Below, in pieces: positions 18,202 to 58,194 of a DNA stretch of 64,000 nucleotides; position 1 is the first letter of the stretch, and every line of letters begins with the position of its first letter. The notes under the pieces are model-generated. The model saw only the letters and a list, made by a program, of their open reading frames with translations. It did not search any database and was not told where the DNA came from. The position numbers were made by a program, and so were the translations under genes. Origin of the DNA: Sphingomonas hankookensis. GTDB taxonomy: Bacteria > Pseudomonadota > Alphaproteobacteria > Sphingomonadales > Sphingomonadaceae. The stretch is from NCBI RefSeq assembly GCF_001619955.1, contig NZ_LQQO01000056.1:1-64000 (forward strand), read 5' to 3'.

Positions 18202-18303
18202 GTCGTCATTCCGGCGAAGGCCGGAATCCATTGTGTCGGGTGTTCACGACTCTACGCGGCCGGCCCGCATCCATGGATTCCTGCCTTCGCCGGAAGGACG
18301 ACG
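18202..18303. repeat. Palindromic intergenic element (GTCATTCCGGCGAAGG type)
   Basis: The left arm begins GTCGTCATTCCGGCGAAGGC and the right arm ends with the matching CTTCGCCGGAAGGACGAC, with ATCCAT/ATGGAT also mirrored and about 45 unmatched bases between. It lies between the TonB-like gene and thrS. Related elements occur at 21026 and 55830. Confidence 0.75.
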
Positions 18304-21025: not shown

Positions 21026-21122
21026 CGTCATTCTCGCGAAGGCGGGAATCCATACACGCCAACGGTTCGGCAGGAGCCGCGATGATAGCGTTCATGGACT
21101 CCCGCCTCCGCGGGAGTGACGA
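21026..21122. repeat. Palindromic intergenic element (GTCATTC type)
   Basis: The left arm TCGTCATTCTCGCGAAGGCG mirrors the right arm CGCCTCCGCGGGAGTGACGA imperfectly, with ATCCAT/ATGGA also mirrored. It follows infC and precedes that gene's terminator. Same family as the elements at 18202 and 55830. Confidence 0.7.
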
Positions 21123-28537: not shown

Positions 28538-28550
28538 TGTCATCCGAACC

Positions 28551-28628
28551 GTACCCCTGCGCAGGCGGGGGTCCAGGGTAACAGAGGACGACGTCCATGG
28601 CTCTGGACCCCCGCCTGCGCGGGGGTAC
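28551..28628. repeat. Palindromic intergenic element (GTACCCC type)
   Basis: GTACCCCTGCGCAGGCGGGG at the left end mirrors CCCCGCCTGCGCGGGGGTAC at the right, with GGTCCAG/CTGGACC also mirrored and about 25 bases between. It lies right after rdgB and may end its transcript. The same type occurs at 55986. Confidence 0.75.
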
Positions 28629-28700
28629 AAACAGCCTGATTACCGCAAGGCTGGAACGCCCGCCCCGCCCCGAACATTGGACGCCCCGAAAGGAAATCCG

Positions 28701-50829: not shown

Positions 50830-53408
50830 GCCTTCTCCTCGCCCTGCTCGCCGGCACGGCCGAACCCGACCCGCAGATCGCCGCGACCATCGCGGCGATG
50901 ACGCCTGCGGAAAAGGCGGCGCAACTGCAAAGCACCGCCCCGGCGCAGGGCGATGTCCTGCCCGCCTATGACTATTGGAACGAGGCGCTGCACGGCCTCG
51001 CCCGCAACGGCGTCGCCACCGTGTTTCCGCAGGCGATCGGCCTCGCCGCGACGTGGGATGCGCCGTTGATGGAGCGGATCGGCACCGTCGTGTCGACCGA
51101 GGCCCGCGCCAAATACAACGCCCTGCCGAGCAAGAACCGGCGGCGCTACGAGGGGCTGACCATCTGGTCGCCCAACATCAACATCTTCCGCGATCCCCGC
51201 TGGGGCCGCGGGATGGAAACCTATGGCGAGGACCCGGTGCTGACCGGCGCGCTGGCGGTCGGTTATGTCCGTGGCCTGCAAGGCCCCGACCCGCTGCAAC
51301 CCCGCGTCATCGCCACGCCCAAGCATCTGGTCGCCCATAGCGGGCCGGAGGCGGGCCGAGACGCGTTCAGCGTGCAGACCGCACCCTATGACATGGAGGC
51401 GACGTACCTCCCCGCCTTCCGTCGCGCGCTGACCGAGGGGAAGGCGCAGTCGGTGATGTGCGCCTATAACGGCGTCCACGGCGTGCCGGTCTGTGCCGCC
51501 GACTGGCTGCTCAACGATCGCATCCGCCGCGACTGGGGCTGGAACGGGCTGGTCGTGTCGGACTGCGACGCGATTGGCAACATCGCCCATTATCAGCGTT
51601 ATGCGCTCGACAATGCCGCCGGCTCCGCCGCCGCGATCAATGCCGGTATGGATGTCAATTGCGGCACCGCCTACGCCGCGCTGCCCAGGGCACTCGAACG
51701 CGGCCTGACGACACAGGCGGTCATCGACCGCGCGCTCACCCGCACCTTCGAAGCTCGCAAGCGCCTCGGCCATGCGTTCGGCGCCAAGAGCCGGTGGGAT
51801 TCGATTCCCACCAGCGCCCTCCACACCCCCGCCAACCGCGCGCTGGCGCTGGAGGCCGCGCGCAAGTCGCTGGTCCTGCTCCAGAACAACGGCGTCCTGC
51901 CGTTGAAGCGCGGCGCCCGGATCGCGGTCGTCGGCCCCAATGCCGACAGCCTCGACGTGCTGGAAGCGAATTACAACGGCACCTCCGCCGCCCCGGTAAC
52001 GCCGCTCAAAGGGCTGACCGACCGCTTCGCCGTCACCTATGCGCAAGGGTCGACACTGGCCGAGGGCGTTCCCCTCCCCGTCCCGCAGACGGCGTTCGGT
52101 TCGGGGCTGAAGGCCGAGTTCTTCGCAGACCCGGCGATGACCGGCACACCGGTGCTGACCCGCACCGACCGCACCATCGATTTCAACTGGGCGCGCACCA
52201 GCCCCGCCGCGAACCTGCCCGTCGACCACTACGGCGTGCGCTGGACCGGCACGCTGACCCCGCCGGGGCCGGGCCGCTACACGCTGCGCATCGACATCAA
52301 CCGCTGCTGGGACAAATGCTCGGGCCGCGACGCGGTGAGATTGTGGGTCGATGGCAAGGACGTGCTCAGCGCCACCGGCACCGCCGCCGTCGAAGGCGCC
52401 GCGAACGACAGCAAGTCCGAACGGATGGAGGCGCTGCTCGACTTCGCCGACACGTCGCCCAAAGCCTTCCGCCTAGACCTGATCCATGCCAGCACCGACG
52501 ACAGCATCCGCCTGACCTGGATCGCCCCCGCCGATCCGCAGCGCACACAAGCCGTTGCCGCCGCGCAATCCGCCGATGCCGTTATCGCCTTCGTCGGCCT
52601 GTCCCCCGCCGTCGAGGGCGAGGCACTCCGCCTCGAAGTCGCCGGCTTCTCGGGCGGCGACCGCACCGACATCGCGCTCCCGCAGGCGCAGCAACAACTG
52701 CTCGAAGCGGTCAAGGCAACCGGCAAGCCGCTGATCGTCGTCCTGCTCTCGGGCAGCGCGGTCGCGATGGAATGGGCGAAACAACACGCCGATGCGATCG
52801 TCGCCGGCTGGTATCCGGGTGAGGTCGGCGGCACCGCCATCGCCGATGTCCTCGACGGCACGACCAACCCCTCGGGCCGCCTGCCCGTCACCTTCTACGC
52901 CCGCACCAGCGACCTGCCCGCCTTCGTCGATTACAATATGAAGGGCCGCACCTATCGCTATTTCGACGGCCAGCCGCTCTGGGGCTTCGGCCACGGCCTG
53001 AGCTACACCGACTACGCCTATGCCGACGCCAAGGCGCCGACAACCCTCACCGCCGGTCAGCCACTTACCGTCACCGCCCGCATCACCAACACCGGCAAGC
53101 GCAGCGGCGAGGAAGTCGCGCAAGCCTATCTGATCGCACCCGCCGCACTCAACCGGATCGGCGCATGGAACGATCCGGTCCTGCGCCACAGCCTCGTCGC
53201 CTTCCAGCGCGTCGCGCTCAAGCCCGGTCAGGCAAAGACCGTGACCTTCACCCTCGACCCGCGCCTGCTCAGCACCGTGTCGCTCGACGGCACCCGCGCG
53301 GTGCGGCCGGGCGCCTATCGCTTGTTCCTCGGCGGCGGCCAGCCGGGCAGCACCCCCGGACAGGAGGTCGCCTTCACCATCACGGGCACGCAGGAGTTGC
53401 CGAAATGA
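50826..53408 (+). CDS. GH3 beta-xylosidase/beta-glucosidase-like enzyme with PA14 insert
   Basis: 860 residues from GTG 50826, overlapping the previous stop (GTGA). GH3 N-domain with R-D-P-R-W-G-R-G-M-E-T-Y-G-E-D-P and nucleophile D246 (V-V-S-D-C-D-A-I); the C-domain L-V-L-L-Q-N-N-G-V-L-P-L is interrupted at about 420-560 by a PA14 domain (Y-G-V-R-W-T-G-T-L-T-P-P-G-P-G-R-Y); a fibronectin III-like end follows. The start is short and the signal peptide weak. In a plant N-glycan locus a beta-1,2-xylosidase role is attractive, but specificity is inferred. Confidence 0.9.
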   Translation: MSLLLALLAGTAEPDPQIAATIAAMTPAEKAAQLQSTAPAQGDVLPAYDYWNEALHGLARNGVATVFPQAIGLAATWDAPLMERIGTVVSTEARAKYNALPSKNRRRYEGLTIWSPNINIFRDPRWGRGMETYGEDPVLTGALAVGYVRGLQGPDPLQPRVIATPKHLVAHSGPEAGRDAFSVQTAPYDMEATYLPAFRRALTEGKAQSVMCAYNGVHGVPVCAADWLLNDRIRRDWGWNGLVVSDCDAIGNIAHYQRYALDNAAGSAAAINAGMDVNCGTAYAALPRALERGLTTQAVIDRALTRTFEARKRLGHAFGAKSRWDSIPTSALHTPANRALALEAARKSLVLLQNNGVLPLKRGARIAVVGPNADSLDVLEANYNGTSAAPVTPLKGLTDRFAVTYAQGSTLAEGVPLPVPQTAFGSGLKAEFFADPAMTGTPVLTRTDRTIDFNWARTSPAANLPVDHYGVRWTGTLTPPGPGRYTLRIDINRCWDKCSGRDAVRLWVDGKDVLSATGTAAVEGAANDSKSERMEALLDFADTSPKAFRLDLIHASTDDSIRLTWIAPADPQRTQAVAAAQSADAVIAFVGLSPAVEGEALRLEVAGFSGGDRTDIALPQAQQQLLEAVKATGKPLIVVLLSGSAVAMEWAKQHADAIVAGWYPGEVGGTAIADVLDGTTNPSGRLPVTFYARTSDLPAFVDYNMKGRTYRYFDGQPLWGFGHGLSYTDYAYADAKAPTTLTAGQPLTVTARITNTGKRSGEEVAQAYLIAPAALNRIGAWNDPVLRHSLVAFQRVALKPGQAKTVTFTLDPRLLSTVSLDGTRAVRPGAYRLFLGGGQPGSTPGQEVAFTITGTQELPK

Positions 53409-55699
53409 CGACGCTTTCCCGCCGCGCCCTGCTCGGCAGCAGCGCGGGCCTCGCCGTCGCCGCCGCGCTGCCGGCGACGACCGTCACCCCGCCCCCTGCC
53501 CGCCCGAACCTGTTCGTCGGCACCGGCGGCGACGGCCATACCTTCCCCGGCGCGACGATGCCGTTCGGGATGGTGCAGCTGTCGCCCGACACCGACACCG
53601 CGCGCTGGGCGACCTGTTCGGGCTATCACAAGGACGACGGCTCGATCCTCGGCTTCAGCCACACCCACCTGTCGGGGACCGGCATCGGCGACATGCTCGA
53701 CGTGCTGGTCGTGCCGACACGCGGGCCCGTGTTACTGGAAGGCGGCCCGCTCGACGACCCCGACAAGGGCTATCGCCAGCGGTTCAGCCAGGAGGTCGCC
53801 GAACCCGGCTATTACGCCGTCACCCTCGAAAGCGGGGTGCGTGCCGAGCTGACCGTTACCGACCGCACCGGTATCCAGCGCCACCGCTTCCCCGCCGGCC
53901 CCGGCCATATCCTGATCGACCTCTCGCACCTCGTGTTGGAGGGTCCGAACCAGCGCCCCTATATCGACGAGGCCGCACTCACCCTCGAACCCGACGGCAC
54001 CCTGACCGGCACCCGCCGCGTGTTCCGTTGGGCCAAGGGCCGCCGCATCTTCTTCGCGATGCAGCTGTCGCGCAAACCCGATCGCGTCGAGTTCTTCAGC
54101 GACAACGACACCCCGGCCGGCGACAAGGGCGTCACCGGCAAGCGCCTGAAGGCAGTGCTCCATTATAACGACGCGGGCGCCGCGCCGATCGTCATCCGCA
54201 CCGGCATCTCCGCCGTCGACCTGGGCGGCGCCAAGGCCAATCTGACCGCCGAAGCGAAGCATTGGGACTTCGACCGCTACGCCCGCGCCGCCCGGTCGGC
54301 ATGGGCGCGCGAACTCAACCTGATCCGGTTCGACGGCGGCACCGAGCAACAGCGCGTGGTCGCGGCGTCGGCGCTCTACCACGCCTCGATCGGCCCGACG
54401 CTCTTCTCCGACGTCGATGGCCGCTATGTCGGCCTCGACCGCCAGACGCACACCGTCCCGCGCGGCGAGGCGGCCTATAGCGCCTATTCGCTGTGGGACA
54501 CCTATCGCGCCTTCCACCCGCTCCAGACGCTGATCCGCCCGAAGCTGACCCAGGCCTTCACCCGCGACCTGATCCGCCAGACCCAGCAAAGCCCGTTCGG
54601 CCCGCCCGTCTGGCCGCTACAGGGGGTGGAAACCGGCACGATGATCGGCTGGCACGCCGTCCCCGTCCTCGCCGAAGCGCGCGCGAAAGGCATCGCCGCC
54701 GACTATGCCGCCGCATGGGGCGGGGTGAAGAAGCGCTCGTTCGACTGGACTACGCCCAATCTCGACAACAGCATCGGCGTGAAGGCGTATGACGAACTCG
54801 GCTATGCGCCCGCCGACCGCATCTTCGAAAGCGTGTCCAAGACGCTGGAGTTTTCCTACGACGATTATGCCGGCGCGTTCATCGCCGACGCGGCGGGCGA
54901 CTCCGCCGGGGCCGCGCGCCTGCGCAAGCGCTCGGGCAACTGGCGCAACGTGTTCGACCAGCGGATCGGCTTCGCCCGCGGCCGGATGGCGGACGGCAGC
55001 TGGGCCGAACCCTACGCCCCCAATGCGCTCGGCCACTCGAAGAAATGGCGCGACTTCACCGAAAGCAATGGCTGGCAGGCGACCTTCCTCAACCAGCACG
55101 ACATTCCCGGCCTGATCGCGGCGATGGGCGGCGATGCCGCGTTCGAAGCGAAGCTCGACGGCCTGTTCACCGCCTCGTCCGAACTCCCCGCCGACGCCCC
55201 GCCCGATATCTCGGGGCTGGTCGGCCAGTACGCGCATGGCAACGAACCCAGTCACCATGTCGCGTACATGTACGCCTGGTGCGGAAGCCCGTGGAAAACG
55301 CAGGCGATGGTCCGCCGCCTGCTGACCGAAATGTACCACGACCGGCCCGACGGCATCATCGGCAACGACGATTGCGGGCAGATGAGCGCATGGTATCTGC
55401 TCTCGGCACTGGGCTTCTATCCGGTCGATCCGGTCAGCGCGACCTATGTGCTGGGCAGCCCGCTGTTCGACCGCGCGACCGTCCAGGTCGGCGGCGGCAA
55501 ACGGCTGATCGTCGAGGCGCGCGGCAACGCCCCCGACCGCCCCTATGTCCGCAGCGTCACCTGGAACGGGCGTCCGTGGACGAAAAGCTGGATCGCGCAT
55601 GCCGATCTGGTCCGGGGCGGACGGCTGGTGTTCGACATGGCGGCCGAACCGAACAAGGCATTCGGGCGCGACCCGAAGGACCGCCCCGGCCACGCATGA
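53405..55699 (+). CDS. GH92 alpha-mannosidase
   Basis: 764 residues from ATG 53405, in an ATGA overlap with the GH3 stop. Tat signal (S-R-R-A-L-L-G-S-S-A-G). GH92 blocks: V-G-T-G-G-D-G-H-T-F-P-G-A-T-M-P-F-G-M-V-Q-L-S-P-D-T, F-S-H-T-H-L-S-G-T-G, Y-S-L-W-D-T-Y-R-A-F-H-P-L, and the acidic G-N-D-D-C-G-Q-M-S-A-W-Y-L with Y-A-H-G-N-E-P-S-H-H. These Ca-dependent enzymes trim alpha-1,2/1,3-linked mannose from N-glycans. Confidence 0.95.
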   Translation: MTTLSRRALLGSSAGLAVAAALPATTVTPPPARPNLFVGTGGDGHTFPGATMPFGMVQLSPDTDTARWATCSGYHKDDGSILGFSHTHLSGTGIGDMLDVLVVPTRGPVLLEGGPLDDPDKGYRQRFSQEVAEPGYYAVTLESGVRAELTVTDRTGIQRHRFPAGPGHILIDLSHLVLEGPNQRPYIDEAALTLEPDGTLTGTRRVFRWAKGRRIFFAMQLSRKPDRVEFFSDNDTPAGDKGVTGKRLKAVLHYNDAGAAPIVIRTGISAVDLGGAKANLTAEAKHWDFDRYARAARSAWARELNLIRFDGGTEQQRVVAASALYHASIGPTLFSDVDGRYVGLDRQTHTVPRGEAAYSAYSLWDTYRAFHPLQTLIRPKLTQAFTRDLIRQTQQSPFGPPVWPLQGVETGTMIGWHAVPVLAEARAKGIAADYAAAWGGVKKRSFDWTTPNLDNSIGVKAYDELGYAPADRIFESVSKTLEFSYDDYAGAFIADAAGDSAGAARLRKRSGNWRNVFDQRIGFARGRMADGSWAEPYAPNALGHSKKWRDFTESNGWQATFLNQHDIPGLIAAMGGDAAFEAKLDGLFTASSELPADAPPDISGLVGQYAHGNEPSHHVAYMYAWCGSPWKTQAMVRRLLTEMYHDRPDGIIGNDDCGQMSAWYLLSALGFYPVDPVSATYVLGSPLFDRATVQVGGGKRLIVEARGNAPDRPYVRSVTWNGRPWTKSWIAHADLVRGGRLVFDMAAEPNKAFGRDPKDRPGHA

Positions 55700-58194
55700 T
55701 CGCCGCCGCGCTCCTCGCCACCGCCGCGCCGCTGACGGTGCCGCTGGCCGCCGCCTGTGTCGTCGGCACCGACCCGGCGGCGCAGGTCCTGCGCGAGCGG
55801 TTGGCGGAACGCGGCGCTATCTGCCCCCCGTCATCCCGGCGCAAGCCGGGATCCATGAATGGGGAAACGGTCGCGCAGGAAGCGACAGCCCCCGACACCA
55901 TGGATTCCGGCCTTCGCCGGAATGACGGGTTGGCGGGTCAGGCTACGCCCGAACCACAACCACAACCACAACCACAACCACGTCCGTACCCCCGCGCAGG
56001 CGGGGGTCCAGAGCCAAGCAAACCGAACGGCTGTGAGTCCCACCCTGGATCCCCGCCTTCGCGGGGATACGGAGTGTGCTGGGAAAAGACGGTCACCATC
56101 CGCTTCGCCCCGGCCCGCCTCGCCCCCGAAGCCTTCACCATCACCACCAGCCGCGACGCGATCACCATCCGCGCCGCCACCACCCGCGCGCGCCTCTACG
56201 CCGCCGGCTACCTCCTGCGCCACCTCGATCATCTCACCCTCACCGCGCCACCCTACGTCACCGAAGCCCCGGCGATGGCGATCCGCGGCACCCAGATCGG
56301 TTACCGCGCCAAGAACAACAGCTACGATGCCTGGGACGTCCCCATGCTGACCCGCCGGATCGAGGATTTCGCGCTGCTCGGCGGCAACCGCATCCAGTTC
56401 GTCGCGCCGGTATCCGACGACGCCGCGACCTCGCCGCTTTCCCCGCTGCCGGCCACCGAAACGCTGATCGCGGTCGCGAGCGCCACCCGCCGCCTCGGCC
56501 TCGACGTCGCGCTCTTCTACCCGCTGCTGCGCGATTACGGCAAACCGGGCAGCGCCGATGCGGAGGTCGCCGACTTCACCGCGCTGGCCGCCAAGCTCCC
56601 CGCGCTCGACGCGCTCTACATCCCCGGCGGCGATCCCGGCCATACCGCGCCCGACCGGCTGTTCCCACTCGCGCAGCGCATCGCCACCGCCCTCCGCCAG
56701 CGTTTCGCGAAAGCCGAAGTCCTGCTGTCGACCCAGGGGTTCGACGCCGCCGGGCTCGACGCCTTCCACGCACAACTCGCCAAAAACCCGCGCTGGCTCA
56801 GCGCCATCTTCGTCGGCCCGCAGACCCGCGACGGGATCGAGGCGCATCGCGCGCGCATCGCCGGGCGATACCCGATCGAAACCTATCCCGACACCGCGCA
56901 CACCATGCACGCGCAATTCCCGATTCCCGACTGGCATCCGGCCTTCGCGCTCACGCAAGGGCGCGAGCCCGTAAACCCGCGCCCTGCCGCCACGACCCGC
57001 ATCTTCGCCTATCTCGCGCCGGCCACGCGCGGCTTCGTAACCTATAGCGAAGGGGTCAATGACGACTGGAACGTGACCCAGTGGTTCCGCCTCGGCTGGC
57101 ATCCCGCCACGCCAGCATCCGACATCGCCGCCGACTACGCGCGGATGTTCATCGGCGACATGGCCTTCGTCGCCGTGCCGGAGGCGCTGGAGGGCAATTG
57201 GCGCGGCGACCCGTCGGCCAATGCCGGGATCGACGCCACCGCGCGGCTGGTCGCCGACCTGCGCCCCGCCCCCTGGGCCGACTGGCGCATCGATCTCTAC
57301 CGCTACCGCGCCACCTATGACGCGCTGGTCCGCCACCGGCTGATCGCCGCCAAGGCCAATGAAAGCGAAGCACGCTGGACGCTGCGACAGGCCCCGGCGA
57401 TCGGTGCAGAGGCCACCGTCGCCGCCGCGCGCTTCGCCTATGCCCGGCCCGAACCGGCGATCGTCGCCCCGCTGCGTGCCGACCTGACCGCCATCGCCGA
57501 CCGGCTCTGGACGCGCGCCCGCATGCAGCTGTCGGTCCCGCGCTATGGGGCCTCCCATTGGGAACGCGGCGCCAATCTCGACCGTGCCGACATCCAGCTC
57601 AACGATCGCACCGTGGTAGAGGCGGAGATGGCCGAGGCACTCACCCGTCCCGACGCCGCCGCCCGCCTCTACGCGATCGGCGACCCCTGGCGCACCCGCG
57701 ACATGGCGCTGTACGACGATCTCGGCGATCCGACCGCCGAACCGCATCTGGTGCGCGGCCCCGGCTTCGATGCCGACCCGCAATCGATGGAAAGTGCCAT
57801 CGACGGCGTCGCCGACCATATCCCCGACCAGGGCTGGCGCATGGCGGATTTGAGCTATGCGGAGGGGCTGTACGAAACCCCGGTGCGGCTGCGCTATACC
57901 GGGCTGGAGCGGGGTCGCCGCTACCGTCTGATCGCGCGCTGGGCGGGCGAGGATTATGCCCTGCCGATGCGCCTGACCGGCGGCGGCGTCGAACTCCACG
58001 GCTTTCGCGCACGACAGGGCGACCGCGAGACCGTCGAAACCGCCATCCCGCCATCGCTCACCGCCGATGGCGCGCTGACCCTCGAATGGCACCGCCCGCC
58101 GGGCATCGGCGGCGGCGGGCGCGGTCATCAGATCGCGCAGACCTGGCTGATCCCCGAACCTTTCGCACCCACCGATCCCGGAGCAGAGCAATGA
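55696..58194 (+). CDS. Unassigned glycosidase-like secreted protein carrying repeat elements in frame
   Basis: 832 residues from ATG 55696 (ATGA overlap with GH92), signal peptide to about residue 20. Residues about 20-44 and 128-190 look like a GH20b/GH67-type N-domain (T-T-R-A-R-L-Y-A-A-G-Y-L-L-R-H-L). A barrel-like part follows (R-I-E-D-F-A-L-L-G-G-N-R, L-Y-I-P-G-G-D-P-G-H, F-V-T-Y-S-E-G-V-N-D-D-W-N), with a beta-rich C-terminus. Residues about 45-125 are translated palindromic repeats, not family sequence. I cannot place it in a numbered GH family; it might act on N-glycan or uronic-acid-like links. Confidence 0.75.
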   Translation: MIAAALLATAAPLTVPLAAACVVGTDPAAQVLRERLAERGAICPPSSRRKPGSMNGETVAQEATAPDTMDSGLRRNDGLAGQATPEPQPQPQPQPRPYPRAGGGPEPSKPNGCESHPGSPPSRGYGVCWEKTVTIRFAPARLAPEAFTITTSRDAITIRAATTRARLYAAGYLLRHLDHLTLTAPPYVTEAPAMAIRGTQIGYRAKNNSYDAWDVPMLTRRIEDFALLGGNRIQFVAPVSDDAATSPLSPLPATETLIAVASATRRLGLDVALFYPLLRDYGKPGSADAEVADFTALAAKLPALDALYIPGGDPGHTAPDRLFPLAQRIATALRQRFAKAEVLLSTQGFDAAGLDAFHAQLAKNPRWLSAIFVGPQTRDGIEAHRARIAGRYPIETYPDTAHTMHAQFPIPDWHPAFALTQGREPVNPRPAATTRIFAYLAPATRGFVTYSEGVNDDWNVTQWFRLGWHPATPASDIAADYARMFIGDMAFVAVPEALEGNWRGDPSANAGIDATARLVADLRPAPWADWRIDLYRYRATYDALVRHRLIAAKANESEARWTLRQAPAIGAEATVAAARFAYARPEPAIVAPLRADLTAIADRLWTRARMQLSVPRYGASHWERGANLDRADIQLNDRTVVEAEMAEALTRPDAAARLYAIGDPWRTRDMALYDDLGDPTAEPHLVRGPGFDADPQSMESAIDGVADHIPDQGWRMADLSYAEGLYETPVRLRYTGLERGRRYRLIARWAGEDYALPMRLTGGGVELHGFRARQGDRETVETAIPPSLTADGALTLEWHRPPGIGGGGRGHQIAQTWLIPEPFAPTDPGAEQ
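55830..55926. repeat. Palindromic element A inside the reading frame
   Basis: It begins GTCATCCCGGCGCAAGCCGG and ends with the mirrored CCTTCGCCGGAATGAC, including ATCCAT/ATGGAT in the arms. This is the same element type as the intergenic copies at 18202 and 21026, here within a coding sequence and without an in-frame stop. Confidence 0.85.
55954..55981 (+). repeat. CCACAA hexamer repeat (encodes Pro-Gln)
   Basis: Four complete and one partial copies of CCACAA between the two palindromic elements, giving a Pro-Gln run. It lies in the same reading frame. Confidence 0.85.
55986..56070. repeat. Palindromic element B inside the reading frame
   Basis: It begins GTACCCCCGCGCAGGCGGGG and ends with the mirrored CCCCGCCTTCGCGGGGATAC, with GGTCCAG/CTGGATC in the arms. 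This is the type found between genes at 28551. Confidence 0.85.

Follow-up and report, generated by a model that had tools for sequence, protein, structure and literature searches.

A disordered loop of a glycosidase-like Sphingomonas gene occupied in frame by changing REP dimers across a clade

In the window analysed here (64,000 nt of the Sphingomonas hankookensis genome, which has 3.8 Mb in 63 contigs), two palindromic repeat elements and a hexamer array lie within one open reading frame, that of a glycosidase-like gene. Comparison with relatives makes it highly probable that dimers of REP sequences entered one disordered loop of the encoded protein in the ancestor of a clade; since then copies would have been passed on, lost, replaced or exchanged at this spot without ever breaking the frame, and translated as tolerated filler. 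In-gene REPs are already known as a kind, since both intragenic CGTC REPs and in-frame Rickettsia palindromic elements (RPE) have been described; the new part is the occupation of one loop across a clade, with changing element types. The features concerned are:

53405 to 55699, plus strand: upstream glycosyl hydrolase family 92 (GH92) gene (open reading frame 53165-55699; Pfam PF07971 and PF17678 on 53435-55696)
55696 to 58194, plus strand: glycosidase-like gene, 832 aa, an open frame; its ATG overlaps the TGA of the GH92 gene (ATGA)
55696 to 55818, plus strand: first 41 codons, with a hydrophobic start, strands in residues 13-22 and a helix in 27-38 (model pLDDT, pooled pS/pN)
55834 to 56082, plus strand: disordered loop, residues 47-129 (pLDDT <50, without secondary structure)
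55829 to 55927, plus strand: element A, 99 nt, an inverted dimer of CGTC-type REP halves (pattern matches, alignments)
55952 to 55981, plus strand: hexamer AACCAC, five copies, between A and B, a Pro-Gln run when translated
55985 to 56071, plus strand: element B, 87 nt, an inverted dimer of CGTA-tagged REP halves (pattern matches, alignments)
18205 to 18299, no strand assigned: A-type dimer (pattern match in the window)
21027 to 21120, no strand assigned: A-type dimer of the CCCGCG subtype, imperfect (pattern match in the window)
28550 to 28629, no strand assigned: B-type dimer (pattern match in the window)

The GH92 start at 53405 was chosen by eye inside its longer open frame. The 832-aa product has a structure model built on 15 sequences (mean pLDDT 63.9) that resembles glycosidases: Foldseek matches it to GH138, GH84, GH20 and GH67 structures with E values of 1e-12 to 1e-10 (best 7.3e-13, with a TM-score of 0.35). 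The fold may thus be related to that of known glycosidases; identities are low (8-13%), as are TM-scores (at most 0.50 among the 50 matches listed), and the protein has no Pfam family at E<=0.001. Enzymes of the GH138, GH84, GH20 and GH67 types have a small N-domain ahead of the barrel. In the model, the strand and helix that lead up to the insert (residues 11-40, pLDDT about 90) and the strands that follow it (residues 131-190, about 90 or higher) are confidently placed, while the insert itself has a pLDDT of 25-36. The first part of the N-domain would thus precede the insert, which would interrupt a single domain after its first strand and helix rather than lie, as the first-pass annotation proposed, between a signal peptide and the N-domain. 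Although residues 1-20 are hydrophobic, strands at residues 13-22 in the model leave the term “signal peptide” unproven.

Element A has its halves at 55829-55855 and 55901-55927, with a spacer of 45 nt, and is translated as SSRRKPGS...MDSGLRRND; the halves of B are at 55985-56011 and 56045-56071, with a spacer of 33 nt, and the translation is YPRAGGGPE...GSPPSRGYG. An A half consists of CGTC, an 8-bp stem opening with two A-T pairs, a 4-nt loop and CCA. Both A halves and the right half of B have an 8-bp stem beginning A-T then T-A and a 4-nt loop; the left half of B has one A-T pair, then C-G. All seven in-gene copies of A in the clade (below), that of the window included, have CGTC at the start and GACG at the end (that of locus L011 has CCG where the others have CCA), and all eight of B begin with CGTA, so that the CGTC tag is lacking. 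B closely resembles the CGTC REPs with CGTA in place of CGTC, and on its sequence may be filed with them as similar only. The elements fold better than shuffled sequence both as DNA (z -5.2 and -6.8, on slightly wider stretches) and as RNA (z -6.7 and -6.4; energies -60.5 and -55.5 kcal/mol). A known Rfam RNA at 55600-56300 was rejected: the best E value was 0.0022, and all eight matches listed fell far under their gathering scores. The AACCAC array, seen by eye in none of the other 13 clade species, lengthens the Pro-Gln run separating A from B and is found in the window's species only.

Orthologs were collected in two ways: a scan of named genomes gave 17 loci (13 from the clade, one from Sphingobium and three distant), and a search of 295 genomes of the genus gave matches in 43, of which 30 loci were examined: 15 are more distant orthologs, 13 come from the clade species already found, and the other two are the window itself and a second strain of its species. 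The second strain differs at 1 of 5,064 bases, and not within the insert. Among the 14 clade species, none has an internal stop in the gene (the L018 loop holds 66 unread N), and the loop contents vary widely. A with B is found in the window, L009 and L010; A, B and a further dimer, D, in L012; and A with a third type, C, in L011. L013 and L014 have a hybrid (left half of C, right half of A) followed by B. A is alone in L016 and L017, B in L020 and L021 (by eye, L020 retains the apparent left end of a lost A ahead of it), and C in L015; L018 has C with another repeat-like sequence, unlike the rest (SHPWKGGVGGG ... APPFQGGE) and partly masked by a stretch of N. L019 has just a single decayed B half, matching at 22 of 23 bases with one extra base; its score of 36, against at most 29 in 500 shuffles, was obtained with a query variant picked after the sequence was seen, though one that does occur in the genome.

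At least one dimer is therefore present in 13 of the 14 species, and a relic in the fourteenth. The elements had been thought private to the strain, with an exact gap expected in its closest relatives; neither idea survives, as these relatives carry elements too, and a short loop appears only in the distant L193 (64% identical) and L022 (Sphingobium). L194 and the other distant orthologs have different sequence at the loop. Nor do relatives carry the insert as conserved protein sequence: what they have are REP dimers differing between species. On a tree of the post-insert part of the gene (insert excluded; 6 of 12 inner branches well supported), the layouts need at least eight changes, by a parsimony count that scores L019 as empty. 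The L012 locus comes from a record titled “Bacillus sp. 2B10” (RPSH01000018.1), with the gene at 80% identity and placed within the Sphingomonas tree; this record is probably mislabelled or contaminated.

For several copies descent in place is favoured. The A of L010 shares 93% of its bases with the in-gene copy of L016, 91% with that of L017 and 89% with that of L011, while the best other copy in its own genome, among the matches listed, reaches 83%. Against this, 89% is also reached by two copies elsewhere in the G206 and G223 genomes, and the L009 and L012 in-gene copies stand at only 85% and 84%. The window A differs from that of L009 at 8 of 99 positions (92% identity) and is at most 86% identical to the other scored copies in its own genome. 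The A spacers, by contrast, contradict the gene tree: that of L009 is like the window's, while that of its sister L010 is like those of L016 and L017 (14 of 45 sites differ between L009 and L010, 5 between L010 and L016). Exchange between lineages, or conversion, must therefore also occur. Between L009 and L010, dS is 0.46 over the 41 upstream codons and 0.63 over the insert, as compared with 0.24 in the core, a sequence pattern which suggests that the 5′ end of the gene may have recombined.

Copies elsewhere in the window, reported in the first-pass annotation, are borne out by the A-like dimers at 18205-18299 and 21027-21120 and the B-like dimer at 28550-28629; in all, the window has six A-pattern matches (0.01 expected by chance) and four B-pattern matches (0.00 expected). 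Genome-wide, 193 halves match the A type with at most 2 mismatches and 235 the B type with at most 3, and control patterns gave 0. For a census of copies inside genes, the 100 places listed per half-element search gave 132 regions with flanks and 137 element groups, 49 of them inverted B dimers (B+B-) and 45 inverted A dimers (A+A-); being a sample, it can be escaped by diverged copies. Coding calls used a codon model trained on this genome, for which the true frame was best in 89% of 240-nt windows. Two of the 137 sampled groups are in frame inside a gene: those of the glycosidase-like gene and L069. Further weak candidates (including L075, L070, L147 and lower) lie outside this count. L053 and L104, with frames open across the elements but weakly coding, were not counted as genes, and L170 was rejected as a gene broken by an element, its stop falling just before it.

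At L069 (G000:C2:105810-108436, minus strand) a B-like element lies in frame just past a hydrophobic N-terminus. The protein was matched in all 14 other genomes searched; 11 ortholog loci were examined, 8 of them with a readable start (L247, L248 and L250, with unreadable starts, were left out of the presence/absence count). The element is present in the same species and in the species of L016, L013 and L012, half present in that of L011, and absent in those of L020, L021 and L018.

What translation adds to the forces acting on the elements can be seen in their lengths. Every in-gene A (7 of 7 species) measures 99 nt and every in-gene B (8 of 8) 87 nt, while A dimers in the same genome (CCGGCG subtype) range from 94 to 99 nt (n=24) and B dimers from 80 to 93 nt (n=71). 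At an orthologous intergenic A locus, L158, the dimer is 97 nt in three species, 98 in five and 99 in two; these length counts are not independent, given shared descent, and this one locus is the control. It covers the window and 9 of its 13 sister species (L010 has two A dimers there, of 99 and 98 nt, one of which was used); of the others, the locus is absent in G149 and G245, G206 aligned without a pattern-detectable dimer, and G317, not recovered with flanks, is outside the count. A B-type intergenic control, L063, yielded dimers only in the window's species, L225 and L226. C dimers measure 83 nt (3 of 3 species) and D, which occurs in one species, 92 nt, neither divisible by three: here the flanks make up the frame, and only the loop as a whole is divisible. 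In the phase used here, 25 of 46 A and 111 of 140 B are open by chance; 9 of 46 and 37 of 140 are both open and divisible by three.

Within the gene, A stems diverge by 0.067 and A spacers by 0.240 (21 pairs), B stems by 0.041 and B spacers by 0.300 (28 pairs); the intergenic A at L158 gives 0.068 and 0.247 (0.057 and 0.186 minus L009), and fourfold sites in the core 0.292. The spacers, though translated, thus evolve at about the synonymous rate, that is, nearly neutrally. With A stems like those of an untranslated copy and spacers near the synonymous rate, the frame is what translation adds.

A different reading is that the hairpins are kept for a nucleic-acid job at the gene junction, such as mRNA stability, attenuation between the GH92 gene and the glycosidase-like one, or early slowing of the ribosome on an exported protein. 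As the GH92 and glycosidase-like genes overlap, there is no intergenic room, and such a hairpin must sit in coding sequence. The presence of at least one dimer or a relic in all 14 species despite swapped types would fit this, but the intergenic A locus is retained at a rate that is not clearly lower. In the half-hairpins every A cell (112 of 112) and nearly every B cell (124 of 128) keeps its pairing; A stems are equally conserved at the intergenic site, however, so nothing special is needed here. At one pair per element there are two-sided changes, with pairing kept in 2 of 7 A and 2 of 8 B rows while both encoded residues are swapped (Ser..Gly to Phe..Glu), but the paired states are two common genomic subtypes, which conversion or replacement would explain equally, and covariation is weak, its score being reached by 27 of 500 shuffles for A and 64 of 500 for B. 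No two-sided change was found in the full-length A hairpin. The RNA folding energies given above, and the position of the other in-gene case (L069), also past a hydrophobic protein start, add some weight. Overall we consider a junction role unlikely.

A little less likely again is a more specific form, in which the loop would be a selected docking place: some REP hairpin, of any type, would be needed in the mRNA about 45 codons in, and the disordered loop would be kept so that types could be swapped in frame. That position would coincide either with the emergence of the exported protein's nascent chain from the ribosome or with the end of the overlapping upstream gene.

Could the elements be untranslated, with a true start downstream and an upstream frame open by accident? 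REPs near annotated N-termini often reflect misannotated starts (PMC3733652), and the window (56074-56076) and L010 have, by eye, a GTG right behind B. By eye again, no hydrophobic stretch follows this GTG, which is absent in L009, L012, L013, L014, L020 and L021. In the range scanned (14 codons before to 59 after the EAF motif), no post-insert start is shared by the species ahead of a Met that lies 49 codons beyond the motif and that 3 of the 14 lack, which disposes of the first-pass annotation's concern about a start after 56070. The upstream codons, on the other hand, behave as protein: a start codon (ATG, GTG or TTG) overlaps the upstream stop as NTGA in 14 of 14 species, the 41 codons have a pooled pS of 0.325 and pN of 0.115 (14 species), and the strand and helix they encode pack confidently in the model. 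In 10 pairs (Nei-Gojobori), dN/dS is 0.06-0.25 in the core, 0.16-0.66 in the upstream 41 codons and 0.36-0.86 in the insert, where pairs with unlike elements (e.g., the window vs. L015) align poorly. The segments flanking the insert on both sides are under purifying selection. With no start shared species-wide near the insert and the start/stop overlap kept in every species, a downstream start was rejected, and we give it very little credence. Translation through the elements is well supported, and the elements are very probably translated; we infer that the protein is made with its insert, and that the loop tolerates it at no cost. That the gene is a pseudogene in which insertions are harmless, as the wide variation in loop length and the insert dN/dS of up to 0.86 might hint, is highly implausible given the core dN/dS, the 14 species without internal stops, and the many residues that stay invariant even when homologs of as little as 38% identity are aligned.

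We thus prefer tolerated insertion. Ordinary CGTC-type REP dimers would have entered an exposed disordered loop of the glycosidase-like protein in the clade ancestor, and would afterwards have been inherited, lost, replaced and exchanged in the loop, always in frame; how they move is something we infer. The peptide would be tolerated filler, and the only clear constraint added by translation would be the avoidance of stops and a net loop length divisible by three. The stems would be kept by the same force as in intergenic copies, whether hairpin selection, palindrome correction or gene conversion.

Several known systems invite comparison. RAYT-borne REPINs are inverted REP dimers of about 90-100 nt. 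The elements here are likewise inverted dimers, but RAYT-borne REPs have the tag GTAG rather than CGTC, and this genome has no match to the RAYT transposase (Y1_Tnp, PF01797; 0 matches, with the control positive in 5 of 14 named genomes).

Sphingomonads include S. wittichii, S. chlorophenolicum, S. alaskensis and N. aromaticivorans. All four are named in a study of CGTC REPs (Di Nocera et al., 2013, PMC3733652). According to that study, these REPs are mostly alpha-proteobacterial, with intragenic copies known and no dedicated transposase, and are defined by an 8-9 bp stem starting with two A-T pairs, a 4-5 nt loop and a CCA tail, with TGTC and CCTC also on record as variants of the tag. Element A shares the CGTC tag, 8-bp stem with A-T start, 4-nt loop and CCA tail, and both there and here the elements form inverted dimers, mostly intergenic with some in ORFs; B differs in having CGTA. 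The study also describes recB of X. campestris and X. oryzae, with different REPs at about the same site. What sets the present case apart is that a single loop has been filled, in 14 species, by at least five element types, with hybrids and losses, and that the in-gene A was compared with an orthologous intergenic copy. No report on this gene or loop was found among openly licensed papers, and neither clade-wide loop occupancy with changing types nor a direct comparison with an intergenic ortholog was met in that literature.

The first-pass annotation had likened the insertions to those of Rickettsia. In-frame RPEs and other mobile-element fusions have been described (PMC10969869, PMC2229807, and Ogata et al. 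cited therein), and the elements here are likewise palindromic repeats in frame within protein genes, in this case a gene under selection. The likeness is one of behaviour: these are CGTC-type REPs, a class not specific to RPEs (RPE-6 and RPE-4 have themselves been equated with CGTC-1 and CGTC-4 REPs; PMC3733652), and few copies are in frame inside genes (2 of the 137 groups sampled), compared with nearly half of R. conorii RPEs in ORFs according to PMC10969869.

Single cases seldom tell whether a translated repeat serves the protein or is just tolerated by it. Here the loop, the elements and an intergenic control stand side by side in closely related environmental bacteria, so that what is due to frame, to hairpin and to peptide can be told apart. 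A loop with different element sets in different species amounts to a natural experiment on how far a protein tolerates hairpin-forming DNA.
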